DNA from: Streptomyces sp. T12
GTDB taxonomy: Bacteria; Actinomycetota; Actinomycetes; Streptomycetales; Streptomycetaceae
DNA: 64,000 bases
NCBI RefSeq assembly: GCF_028736035.1
Contig: NZ_CP117866.1
Location: forward strand, 10,023,001-10,087,000
Reading direction: 5' to 3'
Shown here: positions 5,814 to 37,443 of the stretch, in pieces
How positions within the stretch are numbered: position 1 is the first letter of the stretch
How the letters are laid out: every line of letters starts with the position of its first letter
Notes under the pieces: model-generated
Seen by the model: the letters and a program-made list of their open reading frames with translations, nothing else
Database searches by the model: none
What the model was told of the DNA's origin: nothing
Program-made: the position numbers and the translations under genes

Positions 5814-5941
5814 CATCCGGAACCCTAGGCCAGTCCTGTCCGGGCGGTCCAGACCCCTGCGGCGCCGGAAGCCGGGCGAGGCCCCTGGTGTGTCCGTTGC
5901 CGGAGGGCGGGGTACGCGGCGACGGACGGAAGGGGAAGCCC

Positions 5942-6583
5942 ATGCAGTTCCGTGACCGCAAGGAGGCCGGGCAGGAGCTGGCGGAGCAGCTGCGCATCCG
6001 GCAGGACAAGGGCACCCTTCCGCATCCCGTGATCCTCGCGCTGCCGCGCGGTGGCGTCGCGGTCGCCCGGGAGATCGCGCGGGCCCTGGAGGCCCCGCTG
6101 GACGTGCTCGTCGTACGCAAGATCGGGGCCCCGTTCCACGAGGAGTTCGGGGTCGGCGCGCTCGCGGGCGACGGCCCTCCGCTCTTCGACGAGGCGACGC
6201 TGTACCGGCTGGGGCTGAGCGAGGCCGACCTGGCGCCGGTGGTGGAGCGGGAGCGCAAGGAGCTGCGGCGGCGCGAGGAACGCTATCGGCGGGGCCGGCC
6301 GGCTCCCCAGCTGCGCGGCCGTACCGCCGTCGTCGTCGACGACGGTGTCGCGACCGGCTCGACCGCACGCGCCGCCCTGCGCGCCGTGCGCCAGCAGGAG
6401 CCGGGGCGTCTGGTCCTCGCCGTGCCGGTCTGCGCACCGGAGGCGGCCGAGGAACTGCGCCGGTTGGTCGACGAGTTCGTCTGCCTGCACCAGCCGAGGC
6501 TGTTCAGCGCGGTCGGCGAGTGGTACCAGGACTTCGGCCAGCTGACCGACGCCGATGTGCTGGAGGCGTTGCGCGGCGAGTGA
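5942..6583 (+). CDS. phosphoribosyltransferase (paralogue 2)
   Basis: A 213-residue protein starting with ATG at 5942, preceded by GGAAGGGGAAG. The PRPP loop VVVDDGVATGST lies at about residues 131-142; the N-terminal segment LPRGGVAVAREIARALEAPLDVLVVRKIG is the strand-helix start of the fold. It shares the order and spacing of all motifs with the protein at 602-1255, including the C-terminal VGEWYQDFGQ and LVCLHQP/FVCLHQP segments, so the two are paralogues. The nucleobase or other acceptor is not known. It diverges from the GH115 gene. Confidence 0.9.
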   Translation: MQFRDRKEAGQELAEQLRIRQDKGTLPHPVILALPRGGVAVAREIARALEAPLDVLVVRKIGAPFHEEFGVGALAGDGPPLFDEATLYRLGLSEADLAPVVERERKELRRREERYRRGRPAPQLRGRTAVVVDDGVATGSTARAALRAVRQQEPGRLVLAVPVCAPEAAEELRRLVDEFVCLHQPRLFSAVGEWYQDFGQLTDADVLEALRGE

Positions 6584-6610: not shown

Positions 6611-7735
6611 TCATCGGGTGGCTCGGGCGGCGGGCTTCGTCAGGGTGAGCGCGCCGTCCGCCTCCAGGGCAAGGTGGACGCCGGGGCTGATGCGGTCGAG
6701 GGTGCTGTGCAGCCAGCCGCGGTCCTCGGGCGGGGCGGGCTCCAGGCGCATGCGGCGGGCGATCAGGGGCACCATCCGCAGCTCGGTGAGTTCGCCCGTG
6801 TCCGCCGCGACCGTCACGAGGTGGGCGATGCGGAGATCGTCGCGGTACTGCTCGTATCCGGGGATGCCTTCGTAGTCGTCGACGAAGTCGCCGCAGCCGT
6901 GCAGGATCAGCCGGTCCCGGTAGACCTCGATGGGCCGGGGGTGGTGCGAGGAGTGGCCGTGGACGACGTCGGCGCCGCCGTCGACCAGGGCGTGCGCGAA
7001 GCGGCGCTGTTCACGGGGGACGAGGTAGCCCCAGTTGGAGCCCCAGTGCACGGATACGACTACGAGGTCGCCGGACCGCTTCACCCGCCGTATGTGCCGT
7101 ACCGCGGCGGCGGCCGTGGCGGGCGACAGCTCGGGCACGTAGGCGACGCCGGGCAGGTCCGCCGTCGCGGCCCAGTCCGCGGGGATGCCGCTGTCGTCGG
7201 CACCGAGGGCGAACACGAGCATGCGGCCGCCGTGCGGGAGCGGGAGCGCCACGGGCGCATACGCCTCCTCGGTGTTCCGCCCCGCGCCCGCGGTCCGCAG
7301 ACCCGCCCCGTGCAGCACGTCGAGCGTCTCCTGCAGGCCCGCGCGGCCGAAGTCCTGCACATGGTTGTTGGCCAGGACGCAGACATCGGGCCTGGCCACC
7401 GTGAGGGCGGGCAGGTTGGCCGGATGCATGCGGTAGTGGACCGCCTTGCCGGGCGCGAACGCGTCGCTGCGCGTGACGGCCGTCTCCAGGTTGACGATCC
7501 GGACGTCCGGGGCGCTCGCCTCCAGCAGCCGCAGCGCCTCGCCCCACGGCCAGGACGGGTCGACCGGCGCCGGGATGGGGCCGTTGACCGCCTCCGCCAT
7601 GCTCACGTAGGACCGGGCGTCCGTGACGTATCCCTCCCGCAGCACCGGGTCACCGGGCCGGGCCAGGATCTGGTCGACGCCGCGTCCGAGCATCACGTCG
7701 CCACAGACGAACAGCGTCACTGTGCCGCCGCTCAT
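6611..7735 (-). CDS. CapA family metallophosphoesterase-like protein (poly-gamma-glutamate synthesis type)
   Basis: A 374-residue protein with the ordered motifs of the CapA/PgsA family: [10 protein letters not shown] near the N-terminus (about 12-21), NLETAVT (about 86), [10 protein letters not shown] (about 122-131), [11 protein letters not shown] (about 226) and [16 protein letters not shown] (about 252). These supply the metal-binding His and Asp of a calcineurin-like fold. No signal peptide is visible. The family is named for a part in poly-gamma-glutamate capsule making, but many actinobacterial members stand alone, as here, and their substrate is unknown. It converges with the phosphoribosyltransferase at 5942. 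Confidence 0.88.
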
Positions 7736-8213
7736 GTCTCAACGGTACGAGGTCGTGGTGGGGCGGGGATCGCGTCGCCGGCCAGGGCCGTTCGGCGTGC
7801 GGGGGGGGCGAGCGGTGGTGGTGCAGGCCGCAGATCTCGTCGCGGGGTGTGGCGGCGCGTGGTGCGCGTCGGTGGCGCCTCGGGCGCGAGGGCGCTGTGC
7901 GGGCCGCCGCCGAGGCGCAGCCGGTCGCCAGGCCCGGCGCGGGCATGGTGGCCGGGATCCCGGGGCCTGTCGCTCTCCTGTGTCTCCTGTGTCGCCTGTG
8001 TCGCCGGGATGCCGGTGGTGCCCGGGGCGTGCCGCGCGCCGGACCTCCCGGCCGCGACCGGACCCGTCGACCCGCAGGTCACCACCTCGCACCGCCCCGG
8101 CAGGCGCACCCGATGTCCCCGGCGCCCGCCGCGATACGGAGCCCCCCACGCGGGTACCCCGCACCTGCGATGCCGGGCGCGGGAGACCGCCGGCCGAAGC
8201 GCGGGAGGCTGCC
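7736..8213. other. 478-bp gene-free region between capA-like gene and rtcB
   Basis: No convincing gene on either strand; open frames here have no start signal or family resemblance. It contains an approximately 9-bp tandem repeat (CTCCTGTGT-like, about four units, 7974-8006) and the 18-bp element at 8143-8160 shared with the archease upstream region. It should contain divergent promoters for the capA-like gene and rtcB. Confidence 0.6.
8143..8160 (+). promoter_or_regulatory. 18-bp element upstream of rtcB, identical to one upstream of archease
   Basis: The sequence CCCCCACGCGGGTACCCC ends 53 bases before the rtcB start codon. Exactly the same 18 bases, in the same orientation relative to the gene, lie upstream of the archease gene (10593-10610, minus strand). 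A further TACGG occurs 3 bases before it in both places. GGGTAC inside the element resembles the -10 box of Streptomyces SigB-type promoters, so it may be a promoter core or a binding site of a shared regulator. Confidence 0.6.
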
Positions 8214-9626
8214 ATGGAACTGGTCGAGGAAGCTCCCCACCGCTTCCGTATCGACCCGCACGGCCCGATGCGGGTGCCGGGCGTGGTGTTCGCGTCCCGG
8301 AAGCTGCTGCACGACGCCGAGAAGTCACTGGAGCAGGTGGTCAACGTGGCCACGCTGCCGGGCATCGTCAGCGCGTCGTACGCCATGCCCGACATCCACT
8401 GGGGCTACGGCTTCCCCATCGGCGGCGTCGCGGCGACCGACGTGGCCGACGGCGGTGTCGTCTCGCCCGGCGGGGTCGGCTTCGACATCTCCTGCGGCGT
8501 ACGGCTGCTCGCCGCCGACACCGATCAGCAGGGGCTGGAGTCCGCGCTGACCGAGGTGATGGACGGCCTCGACCGGGCCATCCCGCGCGGCGCCGGGCCC
8601 GGCGGGGTGTGGCACCTGAGCGGCCCCGGGCAGCTGGAGCGGATCCTGCGGGGCGGCTCGCGGTACGCGGTGGGGGAGGGGCACGGCGAGGGGCGCGATC
8701 TGACGCGCTGCGAGGACGGCGGGGCGGTCGCCGACGCCGACGTGGACCAGGTGAGCGCGCGGGCGCGAGAGCGCGGGTTCGGGCAGGTCGGAAGCCTCGG
8801 GTCCGCCAACCACTTCCTGGAGGTGCAGCGCGTCGACGAGGTGTACGACGAGACGGCCGCCGCCGCGTTCGGGATCGCCGTCGGCCAGGTGTGCGTGATG
8901 ATCCACTGCGGTTCCCGCGGCCTCGGTCACCAGATCTGCACCGATCACGTCCGGCTGATGGACCGCGCGATGACCCGCTACGGCATCAAGGTCCCCGACC
9001 GCCAACTGGCCTGCACGCCGGTCGAGTCGCCGGAGGGCCAGAGGTACCTCGGCGCGATGGCGGCCGCGGCCAACTATGGTCGCGCCAACCGCCAGTTGCT
9101 GTCCGACGCGACCCGCGAGGTCTTCCGCCGTGCCGCGGGCATCCGGTTGTCCCTGGTGTACGACGTCTCCCACAACCTCGCCAAGATCGAGACCCACCAG
9201 GTGGCCGGAAAAGGCCGCACCCTCTGCGTCCACCGCAAGGGCGCCACCCGCGCCTTCCCGCCCGGCCATCCTGACCTGCCCGACGACCTGCGCGAGGTCG
9301 GCCAGCCGGTGCTGATCCCGGGGACGATGGGCACCGCCTCCTACGTCCTGGTCGGTGTGGCGGGCGGAGACGCGTTCTCCTCCACCTGTCACGGCGCGGG
9401 CCGCGTCCTCAGCCGCCACCGGGCCGCTCGCGCGGTGGGCGGCCGTGAACTGCGGGCCCGGCTGGAGTCGGCGGGCATAGCGGTACGCCCGCGGTCGCTG
9501 CGCAGCCTCGCGGAGGAGACGCCCGAGGCGTACAAGGACGTGAGCGAGGTGGTGGCCGCGAGCGAGGGGGCACGGCTGTGCCGGACGGTGGCTCGGCTGG
9601 TGCCGCTGGGGGTGGTGAAGGGCTGA
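8214..9626 (+). CDS. rtcB: RtcB family RNA-splicing ligase
   Basis: A 470-residue protein starting with ATG at 8214, with GGGAGG 7 bases upstream. RtcB joins RNA ends with a 2',3'-cyclic phosphate or 3'-phosphate to 5'-OH ends using GTP and Mn2+, acting in tRNA and rRNA repair in the cytoplasm. Seen in the sequence: [15 protein letters not shown] (about 57-71), the metal-ligand Cys94 in [21 protein letters not shown] (about 230), [12 protein letters not shown] (about 317), [10 protein letters not shown] and [12 protein letters not shown] (about 391), which carries the histidine that accepts GMP. Length is normal. Archease, its activating partner, is encoded 436 bases away on the other strand, converging. 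No RtcR-type (CARF plus sigma-54) regulator is nearby. Confidence 0.96.
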
Positions 9627-9780
9627 GGGGGAGGGGACGGCGGGCGGTCGTACGGCCGTAAGCCTCGCGCACCGGCCCGTGGACCCGTACGCCTCACACC
9701 CCCAGACTCACGCCACCGGCGACCGGCCATGGCCGTCGGTCACCGGGTGACGGCGGTGGGCCACTGGCCACGGCTACCGG

Positions 9781-10020
9781 CTACCGGCTGACGGCGGTCG
9801 GCGACCGGCCACGGCGGTCGGCGACCGGCCACGGCGGTCGGCCAACGGTGATCGGCGACCGGCCATGGCTACCGGCTCACGGCGGTCGGCCACGGGCCAT
9901 GGCGGTCGGCCACTGGCCGCGGCCACCGGCCAACGGTGATCGGCCACTGGCCGCGGCGACCGGCCAACGGTGATCGGCCACTGGCCGCGGCGACCGGCCA
10001 ACGGTGATCGGCGACCGGCC
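9781..10020. repeat. tandem repeat array between rtcB and archease
   Basis: About 240 bp of interlocking repeats fill most of the 436-bp gap between the two converging genes. Two exact copies of a 20-bp unit (ACGGCGGTCGGCGACCGGCC) run from 9791 to 9830. Two exact copies of a 34-bp unit run from 9939 to 10006, with a near copy just before at about 9907-9938 and half copies at 9840 and 10007. The units are rich in GGCC palindromes and CGACCGG. There are no unique spacers, so this is not a CRISPR. Open frames through it are low-complexity and unlikely to be translated. Confidence 0.85.
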
Positions 10021-10062
10021 ATGGCGACCGGCCACGCCGACCAGCCAGAGCCACCCCCCGCC

Positions 10063-10518
10063 TCACACGTCCACAGTCACCGCGCACGACCACCCGTACG
10101 GATCCGGCCCGATGTGCAGCCCGTGCCAGGAGACGCCCTTCGGGGAGGCGCCGGTGATCTCCACGTCCGTCAGTTCGACGAGTGCGAGGCGCACGTCGAG
10201 GTCGCCGTCCGTGGGGTCGGCCTCCAGGTCGACGGGCACGCGGCCGTCCACGTCGAGGCGGAAGACGACCTCGTCGAGGAGCGCCGTCAGCAGGCCCTCG
10301 TCGCTGTCCTGTTCGAGCCGTACCCGCTCCACCGAGGTGGGCCGTACCGCCGTGACGTCCGCGAAGCACTCCACCATGCCCAGCGCGGCCTCGACCAGAC
10401 AGCGCTCCCGGCTCACCCCCCACGCCTCGACGCGGACGTCGGCCGTGTGCGGGACCGCCCGGTGGCCGCTGCCGCCGCGCCGCCGTGTCTGGATGTCGTC
10501 GTCGGTGTCGCCGACCAT
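10063..10518 (-). CDS. archease (RtcB cofactor)
   Basis: A 151-residue protein. ATG at 10518 is preferred over GTG at 10524 because GAGGTGA lies 6 bases upstream of the ATG. Archease speeds guanylylation and turnover of the RtcB RNA ligase. Family features: HTADVRVEAWG near residue 24 (metal-binding His and Asp), ECFADVTAVRP, a central D-V-D-G-R-V-P-V-D-L-E strand, and DVEITGASPKGVSWHGLHI towards the C-terminus with the conserved Asp, Lys and His. Length fits bacterial archeases. It faces rtcB and shares an 18-bp upstream element with it, which supports joint action. Confidence 0.93.
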   Translation of the reverse strand: MVGDTDDDIQTRRRGGSGHRAVPHTADVRVEAWGVSRERCLVEAALGMVECFADVTAVRPTSVERVRLEQDSDEGLLTALLDEVVFRLDVDGRVPVDLEADPTDGDLDVRLALVELTDVEITGASPKGVSWHGLHIGPDPYGWSCAVTVDV

Positions 10519-10592
10519 GTGCACTCACCTCTGATCCGCTCGGCCGGCCAGGCCCGGGAGCCGTCTCCCCCGCGAGGGGAGATACATCGATA

Positions 10593-10610
10593 GGGGTACC
10601 CGCGTGGGGG
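10593..10610 (-). promoter_or_regulatory. 18-bp element upstream of archease, identical to one upstream of rtcB
   Basis: Read on the minus strand this is CCCCCACGCGGGTACCCC, identical to 8143-8160. It ends 74 bases before the archease ATG. TACGG again lies 3 bases before it. The GGTACC core is self-complementary, so on the plus strand it could also serve the divergent PPOX-type gene at 10643, which starts only 32 bases away. Confidence 0.6.
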
Positions 10611-10642
10611 CACCCGTACCGCTGAGGCCGAAGGAGCGGACA

Positions 10643-11083
10643 GTGCCGGACATGGAGGAGGACGAGGCGCGTCGTCGGTTCGCCGCTGCCCGGGTGGCAC
10701 GGCTGGCGACGGTCGACCCGGTGGGACGCCCGCACCTGGTGCCGGTGGTGTTCGCCCGGCGCGGCGACCGGATCGTCACCGCCGTCGACCGCAAGCCGAA
10801 GCGCTCCGAGCGGCTCGGGCGGCTGCGCAACATCGCCGGGCACCCGGCGGTCAGCCTGCTCGTGGACGCGTACGACGACGACTGGGACCGCCTGTGGTGG
10901 GTCCGGGCCGACGGCGACGCCCGGATGCTGCTGCCGGACGCGTCCGACGAGACGACGCGCGACGAGTACGCCGTCGCGGTCGGCCTGCTGCGGCAGAAGT
11001 ACCCCCAGTACCGGCGACAGCCCCCGGCCGGCCCGGCGATCGTGATCACCGTGGTGCGCTGGAGCGGCTGGCGGGCCTCGTAG
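10643..11083 (+). CDS. PPOX-class F420-dependent oxidoreductase (Rv0121 type)
   Basis: A 146-residue split beta-barrel protein. GTG at 10643 is chosen because AAGGAG lies exactly 6 bases upstream. Motifs of the pyridoxine-oxidase-like flavin/F420 fold: ARVARLATVDPVGRPHLVPVVFA (about 17-39), a basic KPKRSERLGRLRNIAGHPAVSLLVDAYD stretch that binds the cofactor phosphate, and DDWDRLWWVRADGDARML. The C-terminal PAIVITVVRWSGWRA fits the TIGR03668 group. It likely reduces an unknown substrate with F420H2. It diverges from archease, with a 124-bp gap that holds the shared 18-bp element. Confidence 0.88.
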   Translation: MPDMEEDEARRRFAAARVARLATVDPVGRPHLVPVVFARRGDRIVTAVDRKPKRSERLGRLRNIAGHPAVSLLVDAYDDDWDRLWWVRADGDARMLLPDASDETTRDEYAVAVGLLRQKYPQYRRQPPAGPAIVITVVRWSGWRAS

Positions 11084-35385: not shown

Positions 35386-37443
35386 ATGTTCGAGCTTCCA
35401 CCCCGGGTCCTCTTCGGCGCCGCCTACTACCACGAGTACCAGCCGTACGAACGACTCAAGGACGACCTCGACCTGATGGCCGAGGCTCGCTTCACCGTGA
35501 TCCGGGTCGGCGAGTCCGTCTGGTCGACCTGGGAGCCGGAGAATGGTCGGTTCGACCTCGACTGGCTGCAACCGGTGCTGGACGGCGCCCACGAGCGCGG
35601 CATCTCCGTCATCCTCGGGACACCGACGTACGCGGTGCCGCCGTGGCTGGCCCGGCAGTACCCGGAGATCGCGGGGGAGTACCGCACCGGCGAGCGCCAC
35701 GGCTGGGGTGCCCGGCAGGAGGTCGACTTCACCCACCCGGCGTTCCGCTTCCACGCCGAGCGGGTCATCCGCAAGATCGTCGGCCGCTACGCCGACCACC
35801 CGGCCGTCATCGGCTTCCAGGTCGACAACGAACCCGGCCTGCACCTCTTCCACAACCACGGCGTCTTCCAGCGCTTCGTCGACCATCTGCGCGACAGGTA
35901 CGGGGACGTCGAGACCCTCAACCGTGAGTGGGGCCTCGTCTACTGGTCGCACCGGCTGTCGACCTGGGCCGACCTGTGGACGCCCGACGGCAACGCCCAG
36001 CCCCAGTACGACCTGGCGTGGCGGCGCTTCCAAGCCGGGCTCACCACCGAGTTCATCGCCTGGCAGGCCGAGATCGTGCGCGAGTACGCCCGCCCCGGCC
36101 AGTCCGTCACCACCTGCATCTCCTACGACCGCCAGGGCGTCGAGGACGACAAGCTGACCGAGCGGCTCGACGTCACCGCGGGCAACCCGTACTACACGAT
36201 GCAGGACGCCCTCGCCCTGCCCGACCGGAACCGCTCCGGCCAGGACTGGACGACCAACGGCACCTGGGCGCTGTACCGCAGCGCCGACCGCATGTACTCC
36301 TCACGCCAGGAACCCTTCCTGGTGACGGAGACCAACGCGCAGGCCATCGGCGGACCGTGGAACAACCGCCCCGCCTACGACGGCCAGTACCGCCAGGCCG
36401 CCTGGGCGCTCATCTCGCGCGGCGCCTCGATGATCGAGTACTGGCACTGGCACACCCTGCACTTCGGCGCCGAGACCTACTGGGGCGGCATCCTCCCGCA
36501 CAACGGCCGGCCCGGCCGCGTCTACCGGGAACTCGCCCAGCTGGGAGGGGAGTTGGAGAGGGCGGGTGACTTGGTGGCGTCCCTCACGCCGGACGCCGAT
36601 GTCGCCTTCCTGTACGACGGCCCCAGTAAATGGGCGCTCCAGGCGCAGCCACCGCTGGCCACGTCCGACGGGGGTCCGGACAAGCGGTCGTACGAGACCG
36701 TCTTCGACGCCTTCTACCGGGGCGCCTTCGACGCCGGCCTCCAGTCCCGCATCCTCCACCCCGGCCAACTCCCCGACGCCGAACTGCCCTCGGTCCTGGT
36801 CGTCCCGGCCTACTACGCCGCCGACGACACCACCCTGGACCGGCTGAAGGCCTACGCCGAGCAGGGCGGCCACCTGGTGCTCGGGCCCCGCACGGCCTAC
36901 GGCGACCTTCAGGCGCGGGCCCGTACCGACGTCCAGCCCGCGCGCCTGGCCGACGCGGCCGGGGTGACGTACGACGAGTTCAGCAACCTGGACGCCCCGC
37001 TGCCCGTGACCGGCGCGGGCGGCCTCGCCCTGCCGCCCGGGGCTCGAGCCCTGCACTGGGCCGACGGCCTGCGGCGGCAGGGCGCCGAGGAGTTGGCGGC
37101 GTACGAGCACCCGCACTTCGGCCGCTGGCCCGCCGCCACCACCCATCGGCACGGCGCCGGCCGCATCACCTACGTCGGCACCGTCCCGGACCCGGCCTTC
37201 GCCAAGGCGCTGCTCCAGTGGGCGGCTCCGGCCGACGACCCCTGGCGGCCCGGTCACCCGAGCATCACCTCGACCACGGCCGCCTCGCGCGACGGCCGCC
37301 GGGTCCGCTTCCTGCACAACTGGTCGTGGGAGCAGGTGACCGTACCCGTGCCGCAGGGCGTACGCGACGTGCTGTCCGGAGCTGTGCACGCCGCCGAAGT
37401 ACCCCTCGGGCCCTGGGATGTGAAGGTCCTTCAGGACGAGTGA
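35386..37443 (+). CDS. GH42 beta-galactosidase
   Basis: A 685-residue cytoplasmic glycosidase, starting with ATG at 35386 directly behind GGGAGAAGG. The TIM barrel carries LFGAAYYHEYQPYERLKDDLDLMAEARFTVIRVGESVWSTWEP at the front, the acid/base Glu in VIGFQVDNEPGLH (about residue 149) and the nucleophile Glu in PFLVTETNAQAIGGPW (about residue 315). IEYWHWHTLHFGAETYWGGILPHNG forms the substrate subsite. The trimerisation domain (SVLVVPAYYAADDTTLDRLKAYAEQGGHLVLGPRTAYGD) and a C-terminal beta domain complete it. No signal peptide, so it hydrolyses imported beta-galactosides. It is the last gene of the operon. Confidence 0.95.
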   Translation: MFELPPRVLFGAAYYHEYQPYERLKDDLDLMAEARFTVIRVGESVWSTWEPENGRFDLDWLQPVLDGAHERGISVILGTPTYAVPPWLARQYPEIAGEYRTGERHGWGARQEVDFTHPAFRFHAERVIRKIVGRYADHPAVIGFQVDNEPGLHLFHNHGVFQRFVDHLRDRYGDVETLNREWGLVYWSHRLSTWADLWTPDGNAQPQYDLAWRRFQAGLTTEFIAWQAEIVREYARPGQSVTTCISYDRQGVEDDKLTERLDVTAGNPYYTMQDALALPDRNRSGQDWTTNGTWALYRSADRMYSSRQEPFLVTETNAQAIGGPWNNRPAYDGQYRQAAWALISRGASMIEYWHWHTLHFGAETYWGGILPHNGRPGRVYRELAQLGGELERAGDLVASLTPDADVAFLYDGPSKWALQAQPPLATSDGGPDKRSYETVFDAFYRGAFDAGLQSRILHPGQLPDAELPSVLVVPAYYAADDTTLDRLKAYAEQGGHLVLGPRTAYGDLQARARTDVQPARLADAAGVTYDEFSNLDAPLPVTGAGGLALPPGARALHWADGLRRQGAEELAAYEHPHFGRWPAATTHRHGAGRITYVGTVPDPAFAKALLQWAAPADDPWRPGHPSITSTTAASRDGRRVRFLHNWSWEQVTVPVPQGVRDVLSGAVHAAEVPLGPWDVKVLQDE

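Follow-up and report, generated by a model that had tools for sequence, protein, structure and literature searches.

In a 64,000-nucleotide stretch of the Streptomyces sp. T12 genome (contig NZ_CP117866.1, positions 10,023,001 to 10,087,000; hereafter the window), the genes for the RNA ligase RtcB and its partner archease are preceded by the same two-box site. The genome contains only two sites within 2 mismatches of the 18 bases that both copies share, a group of relatives keeps the two-box site before both genes, and in three of these relatives it stands ahead of a gene pair in which a small gene precedes archease. These observations give good support to a promoter or operator common to rtcB and archease, and hence to the shared control that an initial annotation of this DNA proposed. 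Both genes are probably induced jointly, and a stress-type sigma factor may be responsible. We favor a shared promoter of the SigB type with an atypical −35 box, to which we assign a probability of roughly 57%. The evidence for the element rests on sequence comparison throughout.

A Bipartite Element Before rtcB and Archease

The rtcB gene (470 amino acids; PF01139, E = 6.7e-163) occupies positions 8214–9626 of the plus strand, and archease (PF01951, E = 1.5e-26), which encodes 153 amino acids from the GTG at 10524 (an ATG at 10518 is also possible), occupies 10063–10524 of the minus strand, so that the two genes are convergent. The initial annotation had described one 18-mer before both genes in the same orientation, preceded in both cases by TACGG at a distance of exactly 3 bases, and exact matching confirmed both statements. 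The 18-mer, CCCCCACGCGGGTACCCC, lies at 8143–8160 on the plus strand, 53 bases before the rtcB start codon (ATG at 8214), and at 10593–10610 on the minus strand, 68 bases before the archease GTG (74 before the ATG), with an identical orientation relative to each gene. The two copies are identical over these 18 bases, and the flanking bases differ.

When up to 3 mismatches were allowed, the window contained 2 matches to the 18-mer, both of them exact, compared with a mean of 0.59 in shuffled sequences; at least 2 matches were seen in 14 of 100 shuffles, a test that counts sites with 3 mismatches and therefore understates the significance of two exact 18-mers. At the same threshold, the 11.46 Mb genome held 31 sites. 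Apart from the 2 exact copies, all of them (29) carried 3 mismatches, which is a background level (51 in the backwards control); no site had 1 or 2.

Each copy is part of a longer site with two boxes. At rtcB, the 5′ box, which resembles a −35 element, reads CGATAC (8132–8137, plus strand), and the 3′ box, which resembles a −10 element, reads GGGTAC (8152–8157, plus strand). The corresponding archease boxes are CGGTAC (10616–10621, minus strand) and GGGTAC (10596–10601, minus strand). The rtcB 5′ box was read in the sequence and in the 19 rtcB sites of the window's group (for which the search pattern required TA), and both archease boxes recur in the 17 archease sites of that group.

Could the site simply be part of a coding sequence? 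The rtcB reading frame is open back to 7623, yet the box lies at −43 in one relative (L032) and at −62 in the window. The element must therefore be noncoding, because this offset is not a multiple of three, and the coding explanation was rejected.

Conservation in Relatives

For the comparison, we used 80 rtcB loci from genome records, mostly named Streptomyces, and 60 archease loci sampled from 295 genomes of the window's genus. Within the genus, archease is unevenly distributed, with a match in 70 of the 295 sampled genomes (three of them weak or partial). The removal of identical upstream regions left 109 for rtcB and 127 for archease.

Close relatives keep CGRTAS and GGGTAC 14–15 bases apart, and the bases between them drift. 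Judged by these alignments, the conserved unit is the bipartite CGRTAS-N14/15-GGGTAC, and TACGG falls mostly within its 5′ box, the TAC belonging to CGRTAS. The pattern occurs in 19 of the 109 rtcB regions and 17 of the 127 archease regions, with a spacing of N14 in 18 of the 19 rtcB sites and N15 in 13 of the 17 archease sites. Furthermore, the two occurrences go together: among 105 nonredundant loci with both regions, and with up to 450 bases allowed before archease, 83 had no element at either gene and 13 had one at each; in the remainder, it stood before rtcB alone (6 loci) or archease alone (3 loci) (Fisher P = 9e-10, a value that overstates the independence of these loci, which are related). 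The columns of the boxes in pattern-selected sets of sites reach 100% partly by construction. When 19 rtcB upstream regions were aligned without the pattern, the 3′ box was among the best-kept columns, though not invariant, as some relatives are without it. At archease, it was less well kept, the 27 regions aligned including several without the element. Three distant rtcB genes (L047, L052 and L060) carry another upstream motif, GGTAAC(C/T)CCG followed by GGGCTG, which is not the element.

In this comparison, conservation does not extend to the exact 18-mer. Over the last 9 bases of the spacer, the two copies of the window match at 9 of 9 positions, whereas those of the 12 relatives that carry both copies match at 1 to 7. 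Because the spacers differ in those 12 relatives, we judge the identity of the 18-mer to be partly luck: the shared element is real, but that its two copies agree so fully here is largely accidental. What stands of the annotated 18-mer is thus its two exact copies and its rarity in the genome; as a unit, it gives way to the two boxes that relatives keep.

The same spacers bear on whether the two copies arose by chance or by a recent duplication of one DNA stretch (gene conversion), with no function attached. Eighteen identical bases between different flanks are what such an event might leave behind, but 12 further loci have the element at both genes with different spacers (in L049, only 1 of the 9 bases is common), and no case was found on the wrong strand in the upstream windows. 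Conservation of this kind refutes chance or duplication as the sole explanation, and we regard it as extremely improbable.

Position Relative to the Transcription Unit

In its fixed form, the pattern occurred 41 times on the right strand and never on the wrong strand in 38.5 kb of upstream windows, compared with 14 times in 1.26 Mb elsewhere in the same loci, both strands included (genomes sampled twice were counted twice). Three of these 14 occurrences precede archease, at a distance of 401 bases in L034, 358 in L036 and 328 in L043. In these three loci, a small gene for a membrane-like protein of 85–101 residues sits directly before archease, and the element is found ahead of the small gene. 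A Pfam search with the small protein of L034 gave no match. Four other loci (L037, L055, L059 and L083) have the small gene before archease and showed no element by the fixed pattern within 900 bases. The position of the element in the three loci indicates that it follows the transcription unit, heading the gene pair where the small gene precedes archease.

The archease copy also sits in the upstream region of a divergent gene for a PNPOx-family protein (10643–11083, plus strand; PF01243, E = 2.3e-13), and might therefore serve that gene, either alone or, acting in both directions, together with archease. PNPOx is likewise adjacent in L031, L032, L035 and L038–L040. However, no PNPOx hit came from loci L033, L041, L049 and L062, where archease still has the element before it, and we consider it quite improbable that the copy serves PNPOx, alone or together with archease.

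Occurrences Elsewhere in the Genomes

How specific is the element for the two genes? The initial annotation had suggested searching a 26-base pattern (TACGG, 3 bases and the 18-mer) across genomes, with occurrence at many unrelated genes counting against the idea. With up to 2 mismatches, the 295 genomes gave 10 matches in 7 genomes (backwards control, 1); 8 of these, in 5 genomes, belonged to rtcB or archease and the remaining two fell within long frames, so that no spread over many unrelated genes was seen.

The strict bipartite form, CGRTASN{14,15}GGGTACC, gave 26 matches in 13 archease-bearing genomes (backwards control, 69), of which 17 were assigned by position to rtcB or archease. Among the remaining nine, five lie in long frames with a high GC content at third codon positions (GC3), one of which (L268) is also 110 bases before a gene for a DeoR-family regulator; the other four lie outside such frames and have none just downstream.

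In the genome of the window itself, SNRTASN{13,14}CGGGTACC had 4 matches (backwards control, 13), two of them the window sites, and CGRTASN{14,15}GGGTAY had 8 (backwards control, 14), two of them at rtcB and archease. Four of the other six are in long frames, including one within the window at 35658–35684 (L162). The fifth (L156) lies before a Trns_repr_metal (CsoR-like) gene, and looks like an inverted-repeat site of the CsoR type. The sixth, CGGTAC-N15-GGGTAT at G000:C1:6978720-6978746 (L157:1501-1527), is 15 bases before a gene of the HATPase_c_2 family (148 amino acids, GC3 0.83), a family that includes RsbW-type anti-sigma factors. This site may be a lead toward the SigB reading, an additional regulon member or a product of chance, and a small regulon may extend beyond the rtcB and archease pair.

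A second, divergent rtcB gene, 30.5% identical, is present in the genome (G000:C1:6185550-6186656; L288), and the element, when looked for there, was absent.

A Candidate SigB-Type Promoter

Could the element be a promoter read by a sigma factor of the SigB family? In the portions of PMC8346170 consulted, the SigB-family −10 box of Streptomyces coelicolor has a nearly invariant GGG and a nearly invariant A at position 5, the −35 box is less conserved, the hexamers are 12–15 bases apart, and GGGTAT and GGGCAC are among the promoter variants of Table 2. Both copies of the element have GGGTAC, with the GGG and the A in place, and their spacing of 13–15 bases, depending on the register, falls within the published range. 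Relatives provide natural variants of the box, GGGTAT in L170 and GGGCAC in L054 (a region without the 5′ box).

If this reading is correct, rtcB and archease would each have one copy as its core promoter, made up of a −35-like CGRTAS and a −10 box GGGTAC with 14–15 bases between them; the −10 box would lie about 40–85 bases before the gene, or the element would lie before the small gene that precedes archease. One alternative sigma factor would read both sites, which would allow the co-expression of two convergent genes that are unable to share one transcript, and the −10 box would point to a stress or development sigma factor of the SigB/SigF family. We infer a site that acts as a promoter, a SigB-family sigma factor that recognizes it and an induction of RNA repair under stress or in development.

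Distant rtcB genes have near-canonical SigB-type sites, GTTTAC-N12-GGGAAA (L081), GTTTAT-N12-GGGAAA (L079) and GTTTGC-N12-GGGAAA (L076), which score 15.3–17.0 with the SigB matrix. Over all relatives, the mean z of this matrix was 1.11 on the forward strand compared with 0.40 on the reverse strand for the 109 rtcB regions, and 0.67 compared with 0.17 for the 127 archease regions. Of the individual regions, 32 forward and 19 reverse rtcB regions, and 29 and 9 archease regions, beat their shuffles, under criteria that differed slightly between strands. As a whole, the matrix results lend the SigB reading weak support. The genome encodes eight sigma factors above the SigBFG cut-off, the closest of which lies almost 1 Mb away from the window.

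Several observations weigh against the SigB reading. The SigB-type control suggested in the initial annotation is made plausible by GGGTAC, the spacing and the variants in relatives, but the −35 box conserved in the window's group is CGRTAS and not the usual GTTT or GNNT. With N14, CGATAC and CGGTAC score −4.5 and −3.9, respectively, and in the best register, GATACG and GGTACG with N13, they reach 2.1 and 1.3, with a G at position 1 and no run of T. The totals of the window sites, 8.8 and 7.9, are in the lower half of the 24 known promoters (5.4–15.0 by leave-one-out scoring). Moreover, a broad SigB regulon by itself would not explain a CGRTAS that is common to both genes. The strict consensus, GTTT-N14-16-GGGTAY, is not enriched in the genome (15 matches, compared with 12 in the backwards control); a single repeated sequence accounts for five of the 15, although one of the matches reproduces the published SCO3557p promoter exactly. 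The bipartite patterns are not enriched over their backwards controls either, and support for the element comes from where the matches lie, not from their total count. The archease sites have further conserved columns, a T at −11 and a G at −10 in the spacer and others after the −10 box, which is more than a bare promoter needs. Finally, the element is limited to a subset of the genus: in the genus sample, it was found at 6 of 39 rtcB loci and 8 of 60 archease loci, so that most sampled archease loci are without it. A lack of conservation in sister species had been named at the outset as a ground for dropping the idea; close relatives keep the element, but this wider sample mostly does not.

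The main rival to the SigB-type promoter is a dedicated transcription factor for RNA repair, whose operator would be the element, either as a direct repeat (GRTAC...GGTAC, with roughly two turns of the helix between the halves) or as an inverted repeat, with the real −35 and −10 boxes perhaps overlapping it. The concentration of strict matches at the two genes (17 of 26 in the 13 genomes) would be expected of such an operator, as would an atypical −35 box conserved at both genes and the additional columns at archease. On the other hand, the spacing of the boxes shifts by one base between the genes, from mostly N14 at rtcB to mostly N15 at archease. The element is not a strict palindrome, because the right half of GGGTACCC is not kept in relatives (GGGTACTGC, GGGTACCGC, GGGTATCCC and GGGTACTCC). 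When a CsoR-type arrangement was looked for, with a left arm complementary to GGGTAC at a fixed distance, the left arm proved not to be conserved at rtcB. The neighbors identified (PRTase, PGA_cap, PNPOx and GntP) include no regulator gene. We consider a dedicated factor possible but unlikely.

Whichever protein reads the site, we tentatively propose that one sigma factor or regulator may recognize CGRTAS-N14/15-GGGTAC at rtcB, at archease and perhaps at one gene for an anti-sigma-like ATPase, and at no others. The element would then be a dedicated actinobacterial switch for RNA repair that replaces RtcR and sigma-54 and raises the ligase and its helper together, with the second, divergent rtcB gene left outside.

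Genomic Neighborhood and the OsdR Box

The neighborhood comprises two proteins with phosphoribosyltransferase domains (605–1366 and 5888–6580), PGA_cap (6611–7735), RtcB (8214–9626) and PNPOx (10643–11083). Between rtcB and archease, where the two genes converge, lies an imperfect GC-rich tandem array (9715–10047) whose units resemble CGGCCACCGGCCACGG and recur with periods of, for example, 20, 34 and 88 bases.

Could rtcB and its neighbors be under the control of the dormancy regulator OsdR, of the DevR type, acting through the element? The Pfam families of the neighborhood resemble the kinds of genes in the DosR regulon, which in Mycobacterium tuberculosis includes Rv2631 (RtcB) and Rv0571c (a phosphoribosyltransferase), as given in the part of PMC5309233 available to us. 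Furthermore, the archease regions of two relatives (L106 and L189) reach the score range of known OsdR sites. However, the OsdR box in the accessible text of PMC5069765, AGGGCCGATCGGCCCT, is unlike the element. We scanned all upstream regions with a weight matrix built from the 25 different sites of Table 1 of that paper, in both orientations. Known sites have scores of 11.6 and above; a score of 9 was reached by none of the 109 rtcB regions, where about 3.6 were expected, and an OsdR box at rtcB was rejected. At archease, 7 of the 127 regions scored at least 9, compared with about 4.2 expected, which is not clearly above expectation. The two regions of the window scored 3.6 and 3.7, and the box was not found in them. 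Control through OsdR is, in our estimation, very improbable. A weaker OsdR-type site, with a score of 10.7, lies at 7784–7799 and was recorded as before PGA_cap.

Significance and Comparison with Known Systems

Our literature searches, which left most subscription papers outside, gave no account of the regulation of RtcB and archease in bacteria that lack RtcR. They returned no paper that joins rtcB, Streptomyces and sigB; those that join rtcB, archease and Streptomyces concern, in the parts retrieved, Clp1-family evolution and rRNA-processing domains. A shared promoter, if true, would link the ligation of RNA to a program of stress response or development in Streptomyces. Transfer RNA cleavage is reportedly developmentally regulated in this genus (Haiser and colleagues, 2008). 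The 26-base site is directly testable in named species, for example, S. cyaneus (L031), S. viridochromogenes (L033) and S. bicolor (L035).

Three known systems invite comparison. The first is the control of rtcBA by RtcR and sigma-54, which, in the text of PMC7790460 at hand, likewise places the RtcB ligase under dedicated transcriptional control. The initial annotation held that this control cannot apply here, and the profiles agree: RtcR (PF06956) and sigma-54 (PF04552) had no match in this genome, and both were positive in the Escherichia coli control. The partner here, moreover, is archease, in a separate, convergent unit.

The second is the DevR/OsdR regulon, which shares with this locus an RtcB gene, in M. 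tuberculosis, and similar kinds of neighboring genes (PMC5309233, in the sections seen), but differs in that the OsdR box, as defined in the available part of PMC5069765, was found neither before rtcB nor in the archease region of the window.

The third is the set of SigB-family promoters of S. coelicolor (SigB, F, G, H, I, K, L, M and N), as presented in the excerpts of PMC8346170. The element differs from these in its −35 box, CGRTAS (GRTAS in the other register), and in serving two genes, with no broad regulon seen. What it has in common with them is the −10 box GGGTAC, a spacing within 12–15 bases and the variants GGGTAT and GGGCAC.

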